Origin: an uncultured Syntrophobacterales bacterium
GTDB lineage: Bacteria > Desulfobacterota > Syntrophia > Syntrophales > UBA5619
DNA: 34,368 nt
NCBI GenBank assembly: GCA_903928915.1
Contig: CAIYSL010000013.1
Coordinates: 1 to 34,368 of the forward strand
Reading direction: 5' to 3'
Below the pieces are notes generated by a model. It was not told where the DNA came from, ran no database searches, and saw only the letters and a program-made list of their open reading frames with translations. Positions 11,831 through 21,017 of this stretch are shown piece after piece. The translations under genes were made by a program, and so were the position numbers. Position 1 is the stretch's first letter; the number at the start of each line of letters is the position of its first letter.

Positions 11831-11858
11831 TTTACAAATGATCGTTTTTCGGTAGGAT
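11831..11858 (+). promoter_or_regulatory. Candidate divergent promoter for the delta-60 lipoprotein gene
   Basis: TTTACA (11831-11836), a 16-bp spacer and TAGGAT (11853-11858) point towards the lipoprotein gene. It lies back to back with the regulator promoter, with only 3 bp between the two -35 boxes. The match to consensus is moderate. Confidence 0.45.
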
Positions 11859-11895
11859 GTGCGAAAGGAGCTGCGGAAGGAACGGGGAGGGAAGC

Positions 11896-13191
11896 ATGCT
11901 GAAACGGATCTTACTATCATTGCTGGCGATTTTGCTTATCGGGTGTTCCGAAAACGATCCGAAAGGGGCGCGGGGGGTGCTCGACCGCTCGTTCAACCCG
12001 CCGGCCGGGTATGCGCTCCATCAGGGCGCTCCGGGCCAGCAGGAGCGGGGGGTGGAGACGGCGCTCCAGCCCGACGGCCGGATCGTGGTGCTGGGCTACC
12101 GCCATAACGGCCTGAACAACGACATCCTCCTGCTCAGGTACAACGCCGACGGCTCTCCCGATACCTCCTTCGGCACGGCCGGGGCGGCGGTGTTCGACGT
12201 GCCCGGCTCGGAAGACGAGAAGGGGTTGGGCCTCGCCCTGCAGGCCGACGGCAAGATCGTGGTGGCGGGGTACGTCCGCATCAACGGGAAACGGGACGCG
12301 CTCGTGGCGCGGTTCACCGCCGCGGGCGGCCTCGACGGGACCTTCGGGATAGGCGGGTACGTGACCTACGCCGGGGCCGGCGACGGCACGGACATCGCCT
12401 TCGGGGTGGTCGTGCAGGGCGACGGCCGGATCGTCGTGGTCGGGGAGGCGCGGCATCAGGACTCCCAGGACGCGCTCCTTCTCCGGTACAACGCGGACGG
12501 CACGCTCGACCGCACCTTCGGGGCCGGCGGGGTGTTTACGTACAACGGCGGGCCGGGCGCGGCGGACAAGGGGTTTGCCGCGGCGATCGCCCCGGACGGC
12601 GGGATCGTGCTCGCCGGGTCGAGCATCGTGGCGGCGAAGGAGGATGCGCTGGTGCTGAAGGTCACGGCCGACGGCAGGCTCGACCCCTCCTTCGGCGCGG
12701 GCGGCGTCGTGAACTACAGCGGTCCGGGCGACGAGTCGGACTACGGAAACGCCGTGGCCCTGGAGCCCGACGGCCGGATCGTGATCGCCGGGGCGTCGAG
12801 CAGGGGCGGCCAGTTCGACATCCTGCTGCTGCGCCTGAGGGCCGACGGGAGGCGCGACGAATCGTTCGCCGGCAGCGGCGCGACGACCTTCGGCCGTCCG
12901 GGCGATTTGTACGATTACGCCTGGGGGCTGGCGATCCAGCCGGACGGGAAGATCCTCCTGGCCGGGGCGACCTCCAACGGCGCCGACAACGACGCGCTGA
13001 TCCTGCGCTACCTGGCCGATGGGACCCTGGACCGGGGGTTTGCCTCCGGCGGCGTGTTCACCTTCGCCGTGCCCGGCAGCCGCGAGGACAGCCTTGCCGC
13101 CTGTGCCCTCGAGCCCGGCGGCCGGATCGTGGCCGCAGGCCATGCCAACGACGGGCAGCGCGACGGGGTTCTCGTCATCCGCGTTCAATAG
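11896..13191 (+). CDS. Delta-60 repeat lipoprotein
   Basis: This 431-residue protein is an exported lipoprotein built from delta-60 repeats (a roughly 55-65 residue beta-propeller-like unit). The ATG at 11896 has a GGGAGGG site and opens a short basic and hydrophobic signal ending in the lipobox LIGC; Ser at +2 fits outer-membrane sorting. About seven repeats follow, each with a core like LQPDGRIVVLG, a middle DALLLRYNADG and an end LDxxFG. Related proteins are found on the surface of deltaproteobacteria and others, but no function is established. It stands alone, divergent from the LacI regulator and followed by a stem-loop. Confidence 0.88.
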   Translation: MLKRILLSLLAILLIGCSENDPKGARGVLDRSFNPPAGYALHQGAPGQQERGVETALQPDGRIVVLGYRHNGLNNDILLLRYNADGSPDTSFGTAGAAVFDVPGSEDEKGLGLALQADGKIVVAGYVRINGKRDALVARFTAAGGLDGTFGIGGYVTYAGAGDGTDIAFGVVVQGDGRIVVVGEARHQDSQDALLLRYNADGTLDRTFGAGGVFTYNGGPGAADKGFAAAIAPDGGIVLAGSSIVAAKEDALVLKVTADGRLDPSFGAGGVVNYSGPGDESDYGNAVALEPDGRIVIAGASSRGGQFDILLLRLRADGRRDESFAGSGATTFGRPGDLYDYAWGLAIQPDGKILLAGATSNGADNDALILRYLADGTLDRGFASGGVFTFAVPGSREDSLAACALEPGGRIVAAGHANDGQRDGVLVIRVQ

Positions 13192-13273: not shown

Positions 13274-13341
13274 GTCTCCACCCGGGATCTCCGGCGGGGG
13301 GAACTCACCAGCGATTCTTGCAACCGAAAGGGGGACTGCCG

Positions 13342-13791
13342 ATGTCGAACAATCTCGACGTGATCGTTCTCGACGACGACCCGCAGAACTGTGCGGTGAC
13401 CACCGAGCTCCTGGAGGATTTCTACGTCTGGGGCAAGGTCCATTCCTTCACCGATTACCGGAAGGCCCTGACCTACTGTAGGCGGAGGAAAAGCGGGATC
13501 GCCATCTTCGTCCTGGATGTCTACCTGGGAAAGGAGACGGCCTTCGACTTTCTCGACGCCATCGCCGATCGGTACGCCTGGGCCGCCGAGGACACGATCA
13601 TCATCACCGGAAGGGCCAGCGACGACATCGTCAACGTGTGTCTCGCTTCGCACATCACCTACCTCCTCCAAAAGCCCATCAAGGCCTACACGCTGAAGCT
13701 GGCCGTCCGGGCCATCGTGGACAAGTACCTCGTCTTTGCCCGGAGGCTGCTCGACGACGCCCGTTTCGCCAAGCGCGTGGCGGAGATTTAG
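13342..13791 (+). CDS. Stand-alone response regulator receiver protein
   Basis: This 149-residue protein consists of a CheY-like receiver domain with no output domain. The acidic pocket is Asp11-Asp13 in VLDDDP, the phosphorylated residue is Asp59 in FVLDVYLG, the switch residue is Thr89 in IIITG and the conserved lysine is Lys111 in LQKP, so the domain looks fully active. The ATG at 13342 was chosen for its AGGGGGA site. The C-terminus ends in a short helical tail. It is encoded tail to tail with the transporter-kinase fusion, and their stop codons overlap. Its partner kinase is not obvious; a link to the RsbW-like domain encoded opposite is possible from context only. Confidence 0.9.
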   Translation: MSNNLDVIVLDDDPQNCAVTTELLEDFYVWGKVHSFTDYRKALTYCRRRKSGIAIFVLDVYLGKETAFDFLDAIADRYAWAAEDTIIITGRASDDIVNVCLASHITYLLQKPIKAYTLKLAVRAIVDKYLVFARRLLDDARFAKRVAEI

Positions 13792-15503
13792 GCCCCGTTT
13801 TTCATCGTCAAGGTCAATATGTTCCTGTCGTCGCGGCGGGAGTAACGGACTTCGTCGGCGACCTGGCGGATGAGGTGGATCCCCATCCCGCGGAGGGTCG
13901 CATCCTCCAGGAGGGCGCGCGGATCAGGGGCAGCCACGGCCAGGGGGTTGAAGGCGAGCCCCTCGTCGATGACGTCCACGACGAAGGCCGCCCCCTCGTG
14001 CCGCGCCCGGATGACGAGCTGTCCCGCAGAGCGGTAGGGATAGTTGATGCGGTTGACGGCGGCTTCCTCGAGATAGGCGTAGTGGCAGATGTTGACCACC
14101 GCCTCCTCGACTGCCAGCTGGATGCGAGACTGCTTTTCCGGGGAGAGGCCGGCCCGGAGCGCGTGGACGGCGACGAACTCCATGATATCGGGCAGGAACT
14201 CCACACGCGCCGGGAAGGGGTGCTCTTCGATCCCGGCCAGGACCGCGGACCGCTCCGCAGGGGTTCTCCCGGCCGCCGGCTTCGGCATTCGCCTGTCGAA
14301 CCGGATGAGCAGCGAGACGACCAGGGCCGGGACGAACAGGAGGAGGGAGACGAAGAGGGTCTGGGAGTAGCTCCCCGTCTGTTGGCGGATCCAGGCGGCG
14401 ACCAGGGGACCCGCAAGGCCGGCCGCGGCCCAGGCGGTGAGGATGGCCCCGTGGATCGCGGCCAGGTGCTTCGTCCCGAAGAGGTCGCCGATGTAGGCGG
14501 GTATGCAGGCGAAGCCCCCTCCGTAGCAGGTCATAATCGCGAACAGGATTACCTGGAACAGCAGGGCGTCGGGGGTCCGGGGGAGCAGGAAGAAGGCGAG
14601 GATCTGCAGGACGAAGAAGGCGGTGTAGGTGTTGGCCCTGCCGGCGTAGTCGGAAAGGGCGGCCCACCCGATCCTGCCCCCGCCGTTGAACAGGCCCATC
14701 AGCCCGACCATGGCGGCGGCCTGGGCGGGGCTCAGTCCGGCGATCTCCTGGGCCATCGGGGAGGCGACGGAGATGACGGCGATCCCGCAGGTGATGTTGA
14801 TGAACAGCATCAGCCAGAGGCTCGAGAAGCGGCGGGTCCGGAGGGCCTCACCCACCCCGAGGTTCTCTCCGGCCTGAATCACGCGGGCCGAGACCGCCTT
14901 CGGCGTGTACCCGGTGGGCATCCATCCCGGCGGCGGCGGGGCGAGGTACTGGGAGGAGAGGACCATGACGACGAAGTAGACCGCCCCCAGGGTGAAGAAG
15001 GTTCCCGCCAATCCGACCGTGACGACCAGCTTCTGGATGATCGGGCCGGCGATCAGCGATGCGAACCCGAAGCCCATGATCGCCAGTCCGGTGGCCAGCC
15101 CCCGCCTGTCCGGAAACCATTTGACGAGGGTGGATACCGGCGTGATGTAACCCACGCCCAGACCGATCCCGCCCAGGACGCCGTAGCAGACGTATAACAG
15201 CGTGAGCCTCTCCGCGCTCACGGCCAGACCCGAGCCGGCGATCCCCGCGCCGAAGAAGAGCGCAGCCACCGTTCCCGACACCCGGGGACCGTACCGCTCG
15301 ACGAAGGGGCCCAGCAGGGCCGCCGACAACCCCAGAAAGAGGATGGCGATGCTGAACGTGAACTGGGTGTCGCCGAAGCTCCAGCCCGTCCGGTTGACGA
15401 TGGGCTTGATGAAGACGCTCCAGGCATAGACCGAGCCGATGGAGAGATGGATCCCCACGGCGGAGGCGGCGATAAGCCAGCGATTCTTGGGTGCAGAGTG
15501 CAC
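13788..15503 (-). CDS. OFA-type MFS transporter fused to an RsbW-like histidine-kinase-type ATPase domain
   Basis: This 571-residue protein joins two modules. Residues of about 1-410 are a 12-helix major facilitator of the oxalate/formate antiporter (OFA) type, shown by HLSIGSVYAWSVF, the GVLGGIGLGVGYITP segment and the WFPDRRGLATG loop. After a linker, residues of about 426-571 form a HATPase_c_2 domain like SpoIIAB/RsbW: the N-box LAVEEAVVNICHYAY, the G1 box DVIDEGLAF and the G2 box RGMGIHLIRQVADEV are all intact. The GTG at 15503 was chosen because a GGAG site lies 8 nt upstream and OFA proteins start close to KNRW; an ATG at 15614 would add 37 unusual residues. RsbW-like domains phosphorylate or bind antagonist proteins. 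Transport-linked signalling is inferred. Confidence 0.88.
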   Translation of the reverse strand: MHSAPKNRWLIAASAVGIHLSIGSVYAWSVFIKPIVNRTGWSFGDTQFTFSIAILFLGLSAALLGPFVERYGPRVSGTVAALFFGAGIAGSGLAVSAERLTLLYVCYGVLGGIGLGVGYITPVSTLVKWFPDRRGLATGLAIMGFGFASLIAGPIIQKLVVTVGLAGTFFTLGAVYFVVMVLSSQYLAPPPPGWMPTGYTPKAVSARVIQAGENLGVGEALRTRRFSSLWLMLFINITCGIAVISVASPMAQEIAGLSPAQAAAMVGLMGLFNGGGRIGWAALSDYAGRANTYTAFFVLQILAFFLLPRTPDALLFQVILFAIMTCYGGGFACIPAYIGDLFGTKHLAAIHGAILTAWAAAGLAGPLVAAWIRQQTGSYSQTLFVSLLLFVPALVVSLLIRFDRRMPKPAAGRTPAERSAVLAGIEEHPFPARVEFLPDIMEFVAVHALRAGLSPEKQSRIQLAVEEAVVNICHYAYLEEAAVNRINYPYRSAGQLVIRARHEGAAFVVDVIDEGLAFNPLAVAAPDPRALLEDATLRGMGIHLIRQVADEVRYSRRDDRNILTLTMKNGA

Positions 15504-15735
15504 GGTTCGTGCTCCGATTCCAGGTTTTTGCGGGAAGGAGGTCGGCAAACAGGCAGGGACGATACCCGCGCGACGCTGGGCAACCTTCTTGCCACGCGGG
15601 CACGCGATTGTCAAGAGACATTCCCTCCCGATCTCCTTACGACAACTCCCCCTGTCCCCCGGGGCGCTGCTGTGTTACGCTGAAGGGCATGAGGAAACCG
15701 TCGACGGAAGGAAAGGCCGGGGGGAGAGGGGCGGC

Positions 15736-16191: not shown

Positions 16192-17016
16192 CTAGAAGGC
16201 GCCGCTCCTGATGAAGTCGGCGGCGTTCCGGAACAGGGCGAGCCCGGCCCCCTCTTCGGGGAGCTCCTCCCGCGTCCAGCGGGGGTGGTTGGTCCGGTGG
16301 AGATACGCCTCGGGGTGGGGCATCAGACCGAAGATCCGGCCCGTCTGGTTGCAGATCCCGGCGACCGCGTCGACGGAGCCGTTGGGGTTTGCCGGGTACT
16401 CCGGCGTCGCCCGCCCGGTCTGCTCGTCGCTGTACTGCAGGCAGATGAGGTGCTCCCGGTGGAGCCGGGCCAGGAGCTCCTCGTCGGCGGGGACGAATTT
16501 CCCCTCGCCGTGGCGGACCGGCAGCGGGAGGCGTTTCAGCCCGTTCGTGAAGACGCAGGGAGAGGCGGGATCGACACGCAGGTGGACCCAGCGGTCCTCG
16601 AACCGTCCCGAGTCGTTGAAGGTGAGCGTGGCGGTCTGCCGGTCGATGCGCCCGTCGAGCCCCGGGAGCATCCCCAGTTTGACCAGCAGCTGGAACCCAT
16701 TGCACACCCCGAGGATCAGCTTCCCGGCGGCGATGAACCGGCTGAACTGGGCGAAGAGCTTCTCGCTGCTCCCGGCCACGGGCGCGTGGAGGATCCGGTT
16801 CGCCCCGGCCTTGGCCGATCCGAGGTCGTCGCCGTCGAGAAATCCGCCGGGGAGGTTCAGGAAGTGGTAGTCGTCGAGCCGCTTCTCCCCCGCGAGGAGC
16901 TCGCTGATGTGGACGATCTGGGCGTCGAACCCGGCGAGCCGGCAGGCGTGGGCCATCTCCATCTCGCAGTTCGTTCCGTTCCCGGTGATGACGATCGCTT
17001 TGATTCGCTCAGGCAT
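16192..17016 (-). CDS. purQ: Phosphoribosylformylglycinamidine synthase glutaminase subunit PurQ
   Basis: PurQ is the glutamine amidotransferase that supplies ammonia to PurL in the fourth step of de novo purine synthesis. This 274-residue protein is longer than the roughly 225-residue PurQ of Bacillus. The catalytic cysteine sits in GVCNGFQLL, and the His-Glu pair in LMPHPEAY, completing the triad. The ATG at 17016 was chosen to begin directly before the first strand (IKAIVITGNGTNCE), with a weak GGGATGGA ribosome site. It lies downstream of the purL fusion on the same strand, separated by 184 bp that contain a repeat-like element. Confidence 0.93.
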   Translation of the reverse strand: MPERIKAIVITGNGTNCEMEMAHACRLAGFDAQIVHISELLAGEKRLDDYHFLNLPGGFLDGDDLGSAKAGANRILHAPVAGSSEKLFAQFSRFIAAGKLILGVCNGFQLLVKLGMLPGLDGRIDRQTATLTFNDSGRFEDRWVHLRVDPASPCVFTNGLKRLPLPVRHGEGKFVPADEELLARLHREHLICLQYSDEQTGRATPEYPANPNGSVDAVAGICNQTGRIFGLMPHPEAYLHRTNHPRWTREELPEEGAGLALFRNAADFIRSGAF

Positions 17017-17071
17017 CGTATTCCATCCCGTTTCTTTACTCGTATGAACTAACGCCGCCGCTGCCCTGCCG

Positions 17072-17138
17072 CCGTCATTCCGGCGCAAGCCTGAATCCAG
17101 CGACTTCCCGGGCGCCGGACTGGATCCGGCATGACAGC
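17072..17138. repeat. Degenerate intergenic palindromic (REP-like) element
   Basis: The left arm has GTCATTCCGG and GAATCCAG, and the right arm has CTGGATCCGGCATGAC, so the outer and inner parts pair as an imperfect palindrome. This resembles the dispersed CGTCATTCC-type repeats seen in many proteobacterial genomes. It lies between the purL fusion and purQ. Confidence 0.5.
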
Positions 17139-17200: not shown

Positions 17201-20191
17201 TCAGAAGGCGAGCGGTTTGAGCCATGCCGCCTTGAGGGCGGCGCAATCCGCCTCGACGATCCGCTCCCCGCCGAGGCCGTCGATCCTGAGGACGCCTGCG
17301 GCGATCACCCTGCCCACCGGGGCGCAGTCGCAGCCCGCGAGCGCGGCCGCGAAGGCCTCCCGGTTGTCCGGCCGGACGGTCACGACGAAGCGGCTCTGCG
17401 ATTCCGCGAACAACAGCTCGTCGTTCCTGCCGATCCCCTCCGCCGGCACCTGCCGCAGGTCCGCCTCCAGCCCCAGGCCGCCGGCAAAGGCCGTCTCGGC
17501 AAGGGCCACGCCGAGCCCCCCGTCGGAGCAGTCGTGGCAGGAGGCGACCAGCCCCGCGGCCATCGCCCGGTGGAGCGCCTCGTACAGCGCCCGCGCCGCC
17601 GCGGGCCGCACCCGGGGGACGGAGTTTCCGACGGCCCCGTTCAGGGCGTACCACTCCGAGGCGCCGAGCTCCCGGTAGGTCTTCCCCAGGACATACAGGA
17701 GGTCTCCCGGGCGTTTGGCGTCCATCGTCACGGCCCTGCGCACGTCCTCCATCTTCCCCAGGGTGGAGTAGAGCAGGGTGGGGGGGATCGAGATCCGGAC
17801 CGCGCCGATCTGATAGTCGTTCTTCATGCTGTCCTTCCCGGAGATGCAGGGAACACCGTAGGCAGTCGTGACGTCGTAGAGGGCCTGGTTGGCCCGGACG
17901 AGCTGCGCGAGCTTGTAGTCCCCGTCGGGGTTCTTCTCCGAGCGGATCGGGTCGCACCAGCAGAAGTTGTCGAGCCCGGCCAGGCGGTGGAGCGGCGCCC
18001 CGACGGCAATCGCGTTCCGGATAGCCTCGTCGATGGCACAGGCGGCCATGTGGTAGGCGTCGATGTCGCTGTACCGCGGACAGATGCCACTCGCGATCAC
18101 GATCCCCGCGAAGGAGTCCAGGAGCGGGCGGATCACCGCAGCGTCGCTCGGTCCGTCGTTGGCGGCGCCGGTCAGGGGTTTGACCACGCTTCCCCCCTGC
18201 ACCTCGTGGTCGTACTGGCGGACCACCGACTCCTTGCTGCAGATGTTCAGCCTGCCGAGCATCGCTTTCAGCGCCGCCCCGAGGTCGGCCGGTTCGGCAA
18301 AGACCGGTTCCTGATGGCGGGGAGCCGACCAGGCGGCGTTCAGCCGCATCTGCGGGAGGCCGCCGTGGAGAAAGGACATCTCCACGCAGGCCACGGTCTG
18401 GCGGCCGTACCGGATGTGGAACCAGCCCGAATCGGTGTACCGGCCCAGCACCGTCGCCTCGCAGTCCATCTTCTTGGCTAGCCGGAGGAATTCCTCGCTC
18501 CGCTCCGGGGCCACGGCCAGCGTCATCCGCTCCTGGGACTCGGAGATCAGGATCTCCCAGGGGTCGAGCCCCGGGTACTTGAGCGGCGCCTCCGCCAGGT
18601 CGATCTCGCAGCCGCCGGAGAGCTGCGCCGTCTCGCCCACCGACGACGAGAGGCCGCCGGCGCCGTTGTCGGTGATGGCGCGGTACAGCCCCCGGTCGCG
18701 GGCAACGAGCAGGAAATCGGTCATCTTCTTCTGGGTGATCGGATCGCCGATCTGGACCGCCGTCACCGGGGACCCCTCGTGGAGCTCCTCGGAGGAGAAG
18801 GTTGCGCCGTGGATCCCGTCCTTGCCGATCCTGCCGCCGGTCATCACCACCAAGTCGCCGGGCAGGATCTCCTTGGTGTGGGTCGGCTCGCCGTTGATCC
18901 GGGCGGGCATGATCCCGCCGGTGCCGCAGTAGACCAGGGGCTTGCCGAGGTACCGCTCGTCGAACACGAGGCAGCCGTTCACCGTGGGGATGCCGCTCTT
19001 GTTCCCGCCGTGCTCCACCCCCTCGCGCACCCCCTCGTAGATCCGCCGCGGATGGAGGACCCGCGGAGGCAGGGGCTTGTCATAGTCCGGCGGGGCGAAA
19101 CAGAAGACGTCGGTGTTGAAGATCAGCTTCGCCCCCTTGCCGCAGCCGAAGGGGTCCCGGTTGACCCCCACGATCCCGGTGAGGGCGCCGCCGTAGGGGT
19201 CCAGCGCCGACGGGGAGTTGTGGGTCTCCACCTTGAACACGAGGTTCCAGTCGGCGTCGAACCGGATGATCCCGGCGTTGTCCGAGAAGACGGACAGACA
19301 CCAGTCGTTCTCCCCCATCCGCTCCCGGATCTCCCGGGTGGAGCGCTTGATGTAGGTGGAAAACAGCGAGTCGATCTCGGCGACGCCCCCCGCGCCGTCG
19401 TCGTAGGCGATCCGGGCGTTGAAGATCTTGTGCTTGCAGTGTTCGGACCAGGTCTGGGCGAGGCATTCGAGCTCCGCGTCGGTCATCCGGGCGTCCAGGC
19501 CGACCTCCCGGCGGCGGGCGAGGACCGCGGGGTCCTTCAGGTAGTCGCGGAGGATCCGCATCTCCTCGAGCGTCAGGGCGAGCACCCGTTCGTTGCTGAT
19601 CCGGACGAGCTCCTCGTCCGGCCGGTCGAGGTCGATCATCTCCGTGTGGGGGCGGTTCTCCCCGGCGACGCGGGGTACGGTGGGGTTCATCCCCCGGGCC
19701 GCATCCCAGGCCGCGCCCTCGACGATCTCGCAGCGCTCGATCAGGTCGTTGGCCAAAAGCTCCGAGGCGATCCGCTCGGCGTCCGCCCGGGTGAGCACGT
19801 CGCGGGGGCAGCCGCGGTCGACGGCGCCGATTACGTACTGCCGCGACGTGAAGACCTTGACGGGTTTGCCGACCAGCAGGCCGATCGCCTCCCCGGCCGT
19901 CTTGCCTACGTTGTCGGTGACCCCGGGCCGGAACCCCACCTCGACCAGCCAGTCGAACCCGCGGGCCAGCCCCCGGTCGACACTGAAGGTCTGGATCACG
20001 GGGTCGGAGAGCGGGCCGCGCGCGGCCTGCTCCAGCTCCTCCCGGGTCAGGGGGGTGTCGATCGTGTACACCTCGACCGTCTTTACCGAATCCACCTGGA
20101 TGCGGAGATGCTCGACGATCCGTTTCTTGATCTTTTCCCCGAGGGCGTCCCTGATCCCTTCTCTGAACCCGATCTCGATGCGATTTGCCAT
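17201..20191 (-). CDS. purL: PurS-PurL fusion, phosphoribosylformylglycinamidine synthase
   Basis: This 996-residue protein carries out the synthetase part of the FGAM synthase reaction, using ATP and PurQ-derived ammonia. The first 160 residues look like two PurS-like units (MANRIEIGFREGIRD, then FDWLVEVGFRPGVTD), which in other bacteria form the separate PurS subunit. The PurL core follows with TWSEHCKHK, VFKVETHNSPSALDPYGGA, the metal and nucleotide loop GGNKSGIPTVNG, ISESQERM and the C-terminal SCHDCSDGGLGVALAE. The ATG at 20191 follows an AGGAA site. The glutaminase domain is not fused, which fits the separate purQ downstream. It has its own promoter upstream and no frameshift is seen. 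Confidence 0.95.
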   Translation of the reverse strand: MANRIEIGFREGIRDALGEKIKKRIVEHLRIQVDSVKTVEVYTIDTPLTREELEQAARGPLSDPVIQTFSVDRGLARGFDWLVEVGFRPGVTDNVGKTAGEAIGLLVGKPVKVFTSRQYVIGAVDRGCPRDVLTRADAERIASELLANDLIERCEIVEGAAWDAARGMNPTVPRVAGENRPHTEMIDLDRPDEELVRISNERVLALTLEEMRILRDYLKDPAVLARRREVGLDARMTDAELECLAQTWSEHCKHKIFNARIAYDDGAGGVAEIDSLFSTYIKRSTREIRERMGENDWCLSVFSDNAGIIRFDADWNLVFKVETHNSPSALDPYGGALTGIVGVNRDPFGCGKGAKLIFNTDVFCFAPPDYDKPLPPRVLHPRRIYEGVREGVEHGGNKSGIPTVNGCLVFDERYLGKPLVYCGTGGIMPARINGEPTHTKEILPGDLVVMTGGRIGKDGIHGATFSSEELHEGSPVTAVQIGDPITQKKMTDFLLVARDRGLYRAITDNGAGGLSSSVGETAQLSGGCEIDLAEAPLKYPGLDPWEILISESQERMTLAVAPERSEEFLRLAKKMDCEATVLGRYTDSGWFHIRYGRQTVACVEMSFLHGGLPQMRLNAAWSAPRHQEPVFAEPADLGAALKAMLGRLNICSKESVVRQYDHEVQGGSVVKPLTGAANDGPSDAAVIRPLLDSFAGIVIASGICPRYSDIDAYHMAACAIDEAIRNAIAVGAPLHRLAGLDNFCWCDPIRSEKNPDGDYKLAQLVRANQALYDVTTAYGVPCISGKDSMKNDYQIGAVRISIPPTLLYSTLGKMEDVRRAVTMDAKRPGDLLYVLGKTYRELGASEWYALNGAVGNSVPRVRPAAARALYEALHRAMAAGLVASCHDCSDGGLGVALAETAFAGGLGLEADLRQVPAEGIGRNDELLFAESQSRFVVTVRPDNREAFAAALAGCDCAPVGRVIAAGVLRIDGLGGERIVEADCAALKAAWLKPLAF

Positions 20192-20243
20192 AGCGCTTCC
20201 TAAAGAGGTTTGCCCGCGAGGGTGCGGGCGTGATGTTTGGGTG

Positions 20244-20272
20244 TTCATACCAGATACGGGCGGAAAAAACAA
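20244..20272 (-). promoter_or_regulatory. Candidate sigma-70 promoter of the purL fusion
   Basis: On the minus strand TTGTTT (20267-20272) is separated by 17 bp from TATGAA (20244-20249). The leader would be about 45 nt and contains the inverted repeat GCCCGC/GCGGGC. Confidence 0.55.
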
Positions 20273-20432
20273 TCGTGCTTCCGGAGACAGGGCAGGGGCG
20301 GCGGCGAATGCGTGCTGAGCAGGGGCATCCTCACTGCTGCTGCGCGCCTGCATCGTGCGATAGGGCGGCCACTTCTCGCGCACGCCTCCCTCTGCGGCCC
20401 TGGCAGGTAAATCTCTGTCAAGAGCAAACCCC

Positions 20433-20461
20433 TTGACAGCGACAATGAACTTCTCTAGGAT
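20433..20461 (+). promoter_or_regulatory. Sigma-70 promoter of the Fur/PerR-like gene
   Basis: TTGACA (20433-20438), a 17-bp spacer and TAGGAT (20456-20461) form a strong promoter. The dyad at 20467-20489 begins about where transcription would start. Confidence 0.75.
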
Positions 20462-20466
20462 GGAAC

Positions 20467-20489
20467 CAAACCGGAATGGTTCCGGTTTG
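20467..20489. promoter_or_regulatory. Perfect 10-bp-arm dyad, probable operator of the Fur-like protein
   Basis: CAAACCGGAA and its perfect complement flank a 3-bp TGG centre. The site sits on the transcription start of the Fur-like gene. Its core GGAATGGTTCCGG recurs with one change upstream of katG. It is not a classical A/T-rich Fur or PerR box. Confidence 0.65.
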
Positions 20490-20564
20490 CCTTTTGGGCC
20501 CGGGGAGTTGGACCTCCCGGAAGGTCCGCAGGCGGGGCGTGCGATACGACCCGGAGCGAGTCCT

Positions 20565-21017
20565 ATGACGCGGGAAGGGATGATCGAGAGTCTGCGCGAG
20601 AAGGGGCTGAAGGTTACCTCCCAGCGGCTGGCGGTTATCGACATCCTCATGGAACAGCGGGTTCTCCACCCCAGCGCCGCCCGGGTGTTCGCCGCAGCAA
20701 CAGGCCGGGGATATCGACTGAGCCTTTCCACCGTCTACGCCACGCTCCACGAGTTTTCCCGGCACGGCCTCATCAAGACCCTTGAGTTCGACCAGAGGGA
20801 GAACCGCTACGAGATGAACCCCGAGGAGCACATCAACTTGATCTGCGAGGGGTGCGGGAGGATCAGCGATTACCCCGTCTCCCGGGCTGTCAGCGAGGAA
20901 ACCCTCCTGGCGGACAGGGGGTTTCGGGTGCGCCGGACCAGGATGGAGTATTACGGCTTCTGCCGGGGGTGCCTGCGCGGCGGTTCGTCCAGGAAACCCC
21001 GCGCGGGCAAGACCTGA
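20565..21017 (+). CDS. Fur-family peroxide-type regulator (PerR-like)
   Basis: This 150-residue regulator belongs to the Fur family, which includes iron (Fur) and peroxide (PerR) sensors. The ATG at 20565 is preceded by GGAG. The winged helix covers SLSTVYATLHEF. Structural zinc cysteines are complete: Cys94-Cys97 and Cys133-Cys136. A gapless alignment from memory with Bacillus PerR gives His35, Glu83, His89, Asn91 and Asp102 at the regulatory metal positions (His37, Asp85, His91, His93, Asp104 in Bacillus). The Asp102 marks PerR rather than Fur, while Asn91 replaces a histidine ligand. katG follows 222 bp downstream, and a shared dyad lies before both genes, so it probably represses itself and katG and responds to peroxide. 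Confidence 0.88.
   Translation: MTREGMIESLREKGLKVTSQRLAVIDILMEQRVLHPSAARVFAAATGRGYRLSLSTVYATLHEFSRHGLIKTLEFDQRENRYEMNPEEHINLICEGCGRISDYPVSRAVSEETLLADRGFRVRRTRMEYYGFCRGCLRGGSSRKPRAGKT

Follow-up and report, generated by a model that had tools for sequence, protein, structure and literature searches.

The DNA analysed here (the window) is the whole stretch of 34,368 nucleotides from an uncultured Syntrophobacterales bacterium. Its minus strand carries, at 13788-15503, a gene with a GTG start that encodes an MFS-HATPase_c_2 fusion protein of 571 amino acids (plus stop), delimited by its frame, its Pfam matches and its homologues; all parts of this gene mentioned below lie on the same strand. The open frame, 13788-15614(-), contains no internal stop. 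The GTG at 15503 is probably the start of the gene, because a GGAG ribosome-binding-like site (15512-15515, seen in the sequence) precedes it by 8 nt and because it agrees with the fused homologues, whose N-termini lie at about the same point, ahead of an invariant stretch KNRWLIAASAVGIHLSIGSVYAWSVF. Pfam matched the protein to MFS_1 with 115 bits (E 4e-33), far over the cut-off, and to HATPase_c_2 with 85 bits against a cut-off of 27.4 (E 6e-24), and the GC content by codon position is coding-like in the MFS half, the linker and the kinase half. The extent of the gene and its pairing of an MFS with a kinase domain, as proposed in an earlier note, were thus confirmed by the stop-free frame and by Pfam. 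In the alignment of fused copies, the two halves are joined by a poorly conserved Pro-rich linker (residues 403-430, 14214-14297), which varies among the copies and in which a coupling element is not evident.

The neighbours of the fusion gene are a receiver-domain gene, a gene for a delta-60 repeat protein and purine genes. The first, at 13318-13791 (+), encodes a response regulator consisting only of a receiver domain; it is convergent with the fusion gene, and the two stops overlap by 4 nt. It was set aside as a partner of the fusion, since none of the scanned genes around the fusion in the other three genomes was seen to encode a response regulator. The gene at 11857-13191 (+) encodes a secreted-looking protein with six delta-60 repeats (TIGR02608). 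On the other side, a 1176-aa open reading frame (17201-20731, minus strand) has a PurS domain (aa 184-252) ahead of PurL linker and AIRS domains and is, judging from this domain order, likely to be a PurS-PurL fusion; a separate PurQ-like gene (16192-17088) adjoins it. No partner-switch genes (STAS, SpoIIE) adjoin the fusion gene in the window, so that a partner would need to act in trans. PADLOC gave no result.

The transporter half and its probable ligand

Residues 1-402 (14298-15503) form a transporter half with 12 transmembrane segments (Pfam MFS_1 match 14406-15446) that resembles SfMCT in NCBIfam and structure comparisons. The top NCBIfam model was that of the L-lactate MFS transporter SfMCT (NF049980), with 430.8 bits against a cut-off of 320, whereas the OFA subfamily model (205 bits, cut-off 375) and the OxlT model (171.8 bits, cut-off 335) fell short. 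Among solved structures SfMCT (6g9x) likewise ranked first, ahead of OxlT. The former label of an oxalate/formate-type transporter is therefore right only loosely, and we replace it with a monocarboxylate, lactate-like one.

The tested substrate-contact residues of SfMCT are present. Y119, N276, R280 and Y331 of SfMCT correspond to Y119, N273, R277 and Y327 of the fusion and are kept in all four fused copies known to us, as is Y383; D257 is replaced by Glu in all four and D378 by Gln or Glu. In SfMCT, neither binding nor transport of lactate survives the mutation R280A, and the mutants N276A, D257A, D378A and Y383A are inactive (PMC6573034). K355 of OxlT aligns with W358 of the fusion. The retained Arg, Asn and Tyr residues, together with this Trp, point to a monocarboxylate as the likely ligand. 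Within the proton site of SfMCT, to which D257, D378 and Y383 also belong, H250 is replaced by Val or Ala in every fused copy and R256 is not retained, and proton coupling in the fusion may differ from that in SfMCT. The fusion thus passes the curated model of the SfMCT/SLC16-like L-lactate transporters (NF049980; PDB 6G9X) and keeps their substrate residues; SfMCT itself, however, is a carrier of about 420 aa and has no kinase domain.

The kinase half

The HATPase_c_2 domain, of the RsbW/SpoIIAB kinase type, occupies 13806-14216, as indicated by Pfam, profile comparison and the predicted fold. All three boxes that the earlier note had read as signs of an intact domain were found: the N box LAVEEAVVNICHYAY (14073-14117, by alignment and profile), in which E467 and N471 correspond to E46 and N50 of SpoIIAB, and, by alignment, the G1 box DEGLAF (13950-13967) and the G2 box GMGIHL (13872-13889), which lies in RGMGIHL. 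E466, E467, N471, D513, G515, F518 and G541 are invariant in the four fused homologues, and the G2 box deviates from the GGLG of stand-alone relatives. In the alignment of homologues, the segment directly after the N box, LEEAAVNRINYPYRS (14028-14072), holds an insertion of 10-12 residues that is present in every fused copy (4/4) and in none of 56 stand-alone or SpoIIE-fused homologues.

A domain profile built with 26 homologues found B. subtilis RsbW (6m36) as its best PDB match (E 7e-13), followed by SpoIIAB (E about 1e-5). The predicted model of the domain (pLDDT 86) gave Z scores of 17.2 with RsbW, 15.9 with SpoIIAB and 12.6 with SiaB; histidine kinases scored 9.9 (DesK, the best) and lower, and Pfam reported no histidine-containing dimerisation (DHp) domain in the fusion. 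Profile and predicted fold therefore bear out the RsbW/SpoIIAB-like character seen earlier from the letters and support the assignment of this half as a Ser/Thr kinase domain of that type. Both NCBIfam RsbW equivalog models were missed (24.6 bits against a cut-off of 145, and 21.5 against 155), and we consequently regard it as an RsbW-like domain, which may function as RsbW does, and not as an RsbW orthologue. It shares with the anti-sigma kinases RsbW and SpoIIAB the profile and fold match, the Bergerat N, G1 and G2 boxes and the catalytic Glu and Asn, the Asn being the Mg-binding residue; unlike them, it contains the 10-12 residue insertion and is tethered to a 12-TM carrier. No sigma factor was identified for the fusion.

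Homologues, descent and genetic context

Full-length fused copies, 60-66% identical, were found in three other genomes of the phylum (G169, G635 and G684), belonging to three other classes. The MFS half of the window copy is 68-73% identical to those of the other fused copies and the HATPase half only 43-49%; for the G169 copy the values are 68% (MFS) and 43% (kinase). The earlier note had looked to homologues of the same architecture for a verdict on the fusion and had named a missed stop codon between the domains as one way in which it could prove false. The three additional copies, each in another class and one of them in a genome that is a single contig of 3,655,731 bases (G169), exclude both a missed stop and a chimeric contig, and the fusion is not an artefact.

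The fusion is rare: about 1,000 genomes of the phylum yielded four copies, and the 155 genomes of the window's own order yielded one. The search for the full fusion was made within this one phylum, mostly on samples, and in two large samples scoring was confined to the top three candidates of each genome; all GTDB contigs were scanned with short peptides from the window kinase domain, a query that divergent copies would escape. The long frames among the Clostridia matches (L008, L014, L016 and similar) turned out to be SpoIIE-HATPase proteins and no transporters. No plasmid record reached 80% coverage, no relative was confirmed on viral contigs, and phages gave distant MFS matches only.

In the tree of MFS sequences, the four fused copies form one clade (100/100) together with an unfused carrier of 419 aa from a further genome (G850, L118:1486-2745), far from the unfused carriers of the window's order. 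This carrier is probably the sister of the fused copies, at a weak support of 87/55, and in that position would probably represent the state before the fusion, or else a descendant that lost the kinase domain. In the kinase tree, three fused copies form a clade (100/99) and the G169 copy is unplaced. The simplest reading is that the fusion arose once and was afterwards spread or lost in a patchy manner.

The genetic context differs among the four loci. STAS and SpoIIE neighbours are absent from three of them, namely those of the window, G169 and G635. In G684 the genes for a kinase, a STAS antagonist and a PP2C phosphatase occur together: one strand encodes in succession a STAS protein, a stand-alone RsbW-like kinase, an NMT1/THI5 binding protein, a Cache-HAMP-SpoIIE phosphatase and the fusion, whose ATG overlaps the stop of the phosphatase gene by 4 nt. 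After the fusion come an ABC_sub_bind protein, another STAS protein, which has 406 aa, and finally an ABC permease and an ATPase. The overlap with the SpoIIE gene and the STAS genes of this operon lend genetic support, from this one genome, to a role of the fusion in partner switching. The 406-aa protein (L120:3809-5029) has an N-terminal STAS domain followed by about 300 aa without a Pfam match, and sits between the ABC_sub_bind protein, built of three repeats, and the permease that belongs to it.

Stand-alone homologues of the kinase domain lie mostly beside STAS and SpoIIE genes. Around them the same four genes (STAS, RsbW-like kinase, NMT1/THI5, Cache-HAMP-SpoIIE) recur as a cassette, with their order either kept or rearranged, in Azonexus, Allochromatium, Chlorobiaceae, Syntrophus and others, ranging from Desulfobacterota to Pseudomonadota and Chlorobiota (L001, L004, L005, L007, L011 and L128). 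No description of this cassette was found in the literature searched. The window's genome has it on another contig (C52, L100:4464-8377), where the genes for STAS (110 aa) and kinase (142 aa) are divergent from those for NMT1 and SpoIIE (a 665-aa open frame). A third contig of that genome (C111, L103:2235-3752) encodes a protein of 505 aa in which a HATPase_c_2 domain at the N-terminus is followed by a long C-terminal part.

A transceptor acting in a partner switch as the favoured reading

With moderate confidence, we favour the reading that the fusion is a transceptor for monocarboxylates and that its Ser/Thr kinase domain takes part in a partner switch. The SfMCT-like proton/monocarboxylate carrier would read whether a small monocarboxylate, such as lactate or pyruvate, is present or in flux, and its conformation would be relayed through the short linker to the cytosolic kinase domain. 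This domain would phosphorylate, or release, a STAS-domain antagonist, and a Cache-HAMP-SpoIIE PP2C phosphatase would undo the phosphorylation, so that the partner choice of the STAS protein would report carbon supply to a downstream target, be it a sigma factor, a diguanylate cyclase or another; the ligand, the direction of coupling, the phosphotransfer to STAS and the target are here what we infer. As the fusion recurs in three genomes that are only distantly related, and in one of them shares an operon with phosphatase and target, the protein is probably a sensor reporting on a carbon source. More tentatively, and as a possibility we hold somewhat doubtful, the transport cycle of the lactate/monocarboxylate carrier may directly gate the anti-sigma-type kinase, in which case carbon uptake itself, and not a separate sensor, would determine how far a STAS protein is phosphorylated on which the Cache-SpoIIE phosphatase and a second, soluble kinase also act.

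Several observations speak for the transceptor reading: four fusions in four classes, their common MFS clade, the insertion specific to them, E467 and N471, the SfMCT residues, the G684 operon, the RsbW-type profile and predicted fold, the STAS and SpoIIE genes next to most stand-alone kinase homologues, and the cassette on contig C52 of the window's genome. Against it stand the three loci of four without a STAS or SpoIIE neighbour, the lower conservation of the HATPase half, the G2 box that departs from GGLG and the variable linker. The suggestion of the earlier note, that transport or substrate binding is turned into a partner-switching signal, is thus strengthened by the kinase type, the conservation in four classes and the G684 operon, and weakened by the window locus, which lacks partner genes. 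As the G684 operon already has a stand-alone kinase, the fused domain may also be a decoy or modulator, with the main kinase elsewhere.

The main rival reverses the coupling: the HATPase domain would be an intramolecular regulator of the carrier. On binding ATP/ADP, or a STAS protein, it would gate the uptake of lactate, in a way comparable to the control that STAS domains are believed to exert over SulP/SLC26 transporters. Such a self-contained regulated carrier would suit the single-gene locus in three of four genomes, the tethering of the domain at the cytoplasmic side, the kept carboxylate-binding residues and the better conservation of the MFS half. We nevertheless consider it unlikely, since a pure nucleotide sensor would need only partly the kinase Glu and Asn that all four copies retain, since the SpoIIE and STAS genes of the G684 operon indicate signalling, and since SfMCT transports without any HATPase domain.

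The G684 operon could also be taken to mean that the MFS half is a mere membrane anchor or dead receptor that senses no ligand and places the RsbW-like kinase near a membrane SpoIIE. The gene of the fusion overlaps there with that of a SpoIIE protein whose Cache and HAMP domains mark it as membrane-bound, and the loss of the proton-site His from all four copies would agree with such a role. Nonetheless, a whole carrier with substrate-contact residues and 68-73% identity exceeds the needs of an anchor, Y383 and an acidic residue at the position of D257 are retained, and the conserved binding site makes this explanation less likely still. That the two domains were joined by chance and have no common function, or that the gene is an error of annotation or assembly, would fit the rarity of the architecture, overall and in the window's order (1/155), but this is already contradicted by the full-length homologues in other classes, of which one comes from a genome that is a single contig, as well as by the shared kinase-domain insertion and the invariant catalytic residues, and we regard it as very improbable.

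Known transceptors use histidine kinases, as in CbrA, and known partner-switch kinases leave the sensing to other components; with a carrier and an RsbW-type kinase in direct fusion, a single molecule would tie the flux of a nutrient to partner switching. The nearest working analogue is CbrA, in which an SLC5 transporter is followed by STAC, PAS and histidine kinase domains; SLC5-kinase transceptors serve in the sensing of carbon and nitrogen sources (PMC13022988). Like CbrA, the window copy and its three homologues join a transporter to a signalling kinase, with an N-terminal transporter and a C-terminal cytosolic GHKL-fold kinase in one chain. Unlike CbrA, they have an SfMCT-like MFS carrier and a kinase of the RsbW/SpoIIAB Ser/Thr type, neither a DHp/His domain nor a STAC domain was found in the fusion, and the linkage is to SpoIIE/STAS and not to a response regulator. 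The nearest partner switch responsive to carbon supply is SiaABC(D) of Pseudomonas aeruginosa, in which a PP2C phosphatase opposes a kinase on a STAS-like protein in answer to carbon availability (PMC7647112), but in which the kinase has no transporter attached. The SulP/SLC26 anion transporters bear a STAS domain, a domain of the partner-switch type (PMC8256260), and carry the antagonist, the mirror image of the fusion's kinase, on a transporter of an unrelated family.

The earlier note did not know the fusion as a characterised system, and the open-access literature searched yielded no description of an MFS carrier joined to a kinase of the RsbW type or to a HATPase_c_2 domain; papers on STAS domains and partner switches turned up, but none that dealt with a fused transporter. 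Domain databases may list the MFS plus HATPase_c_2 architecture without comment. If the transport cycle does gate the kinase, the fusion would be a first transporter-coupled partner switch. It would also be a compact system, with structures of lactate transporters at hand, for measuring how transport is coupled to a kinase. It also suggests a carbon-source input for the widespread and apparently uncharacterised STAS/HATPase/NMT1/Cache-SpoIIE cassette.
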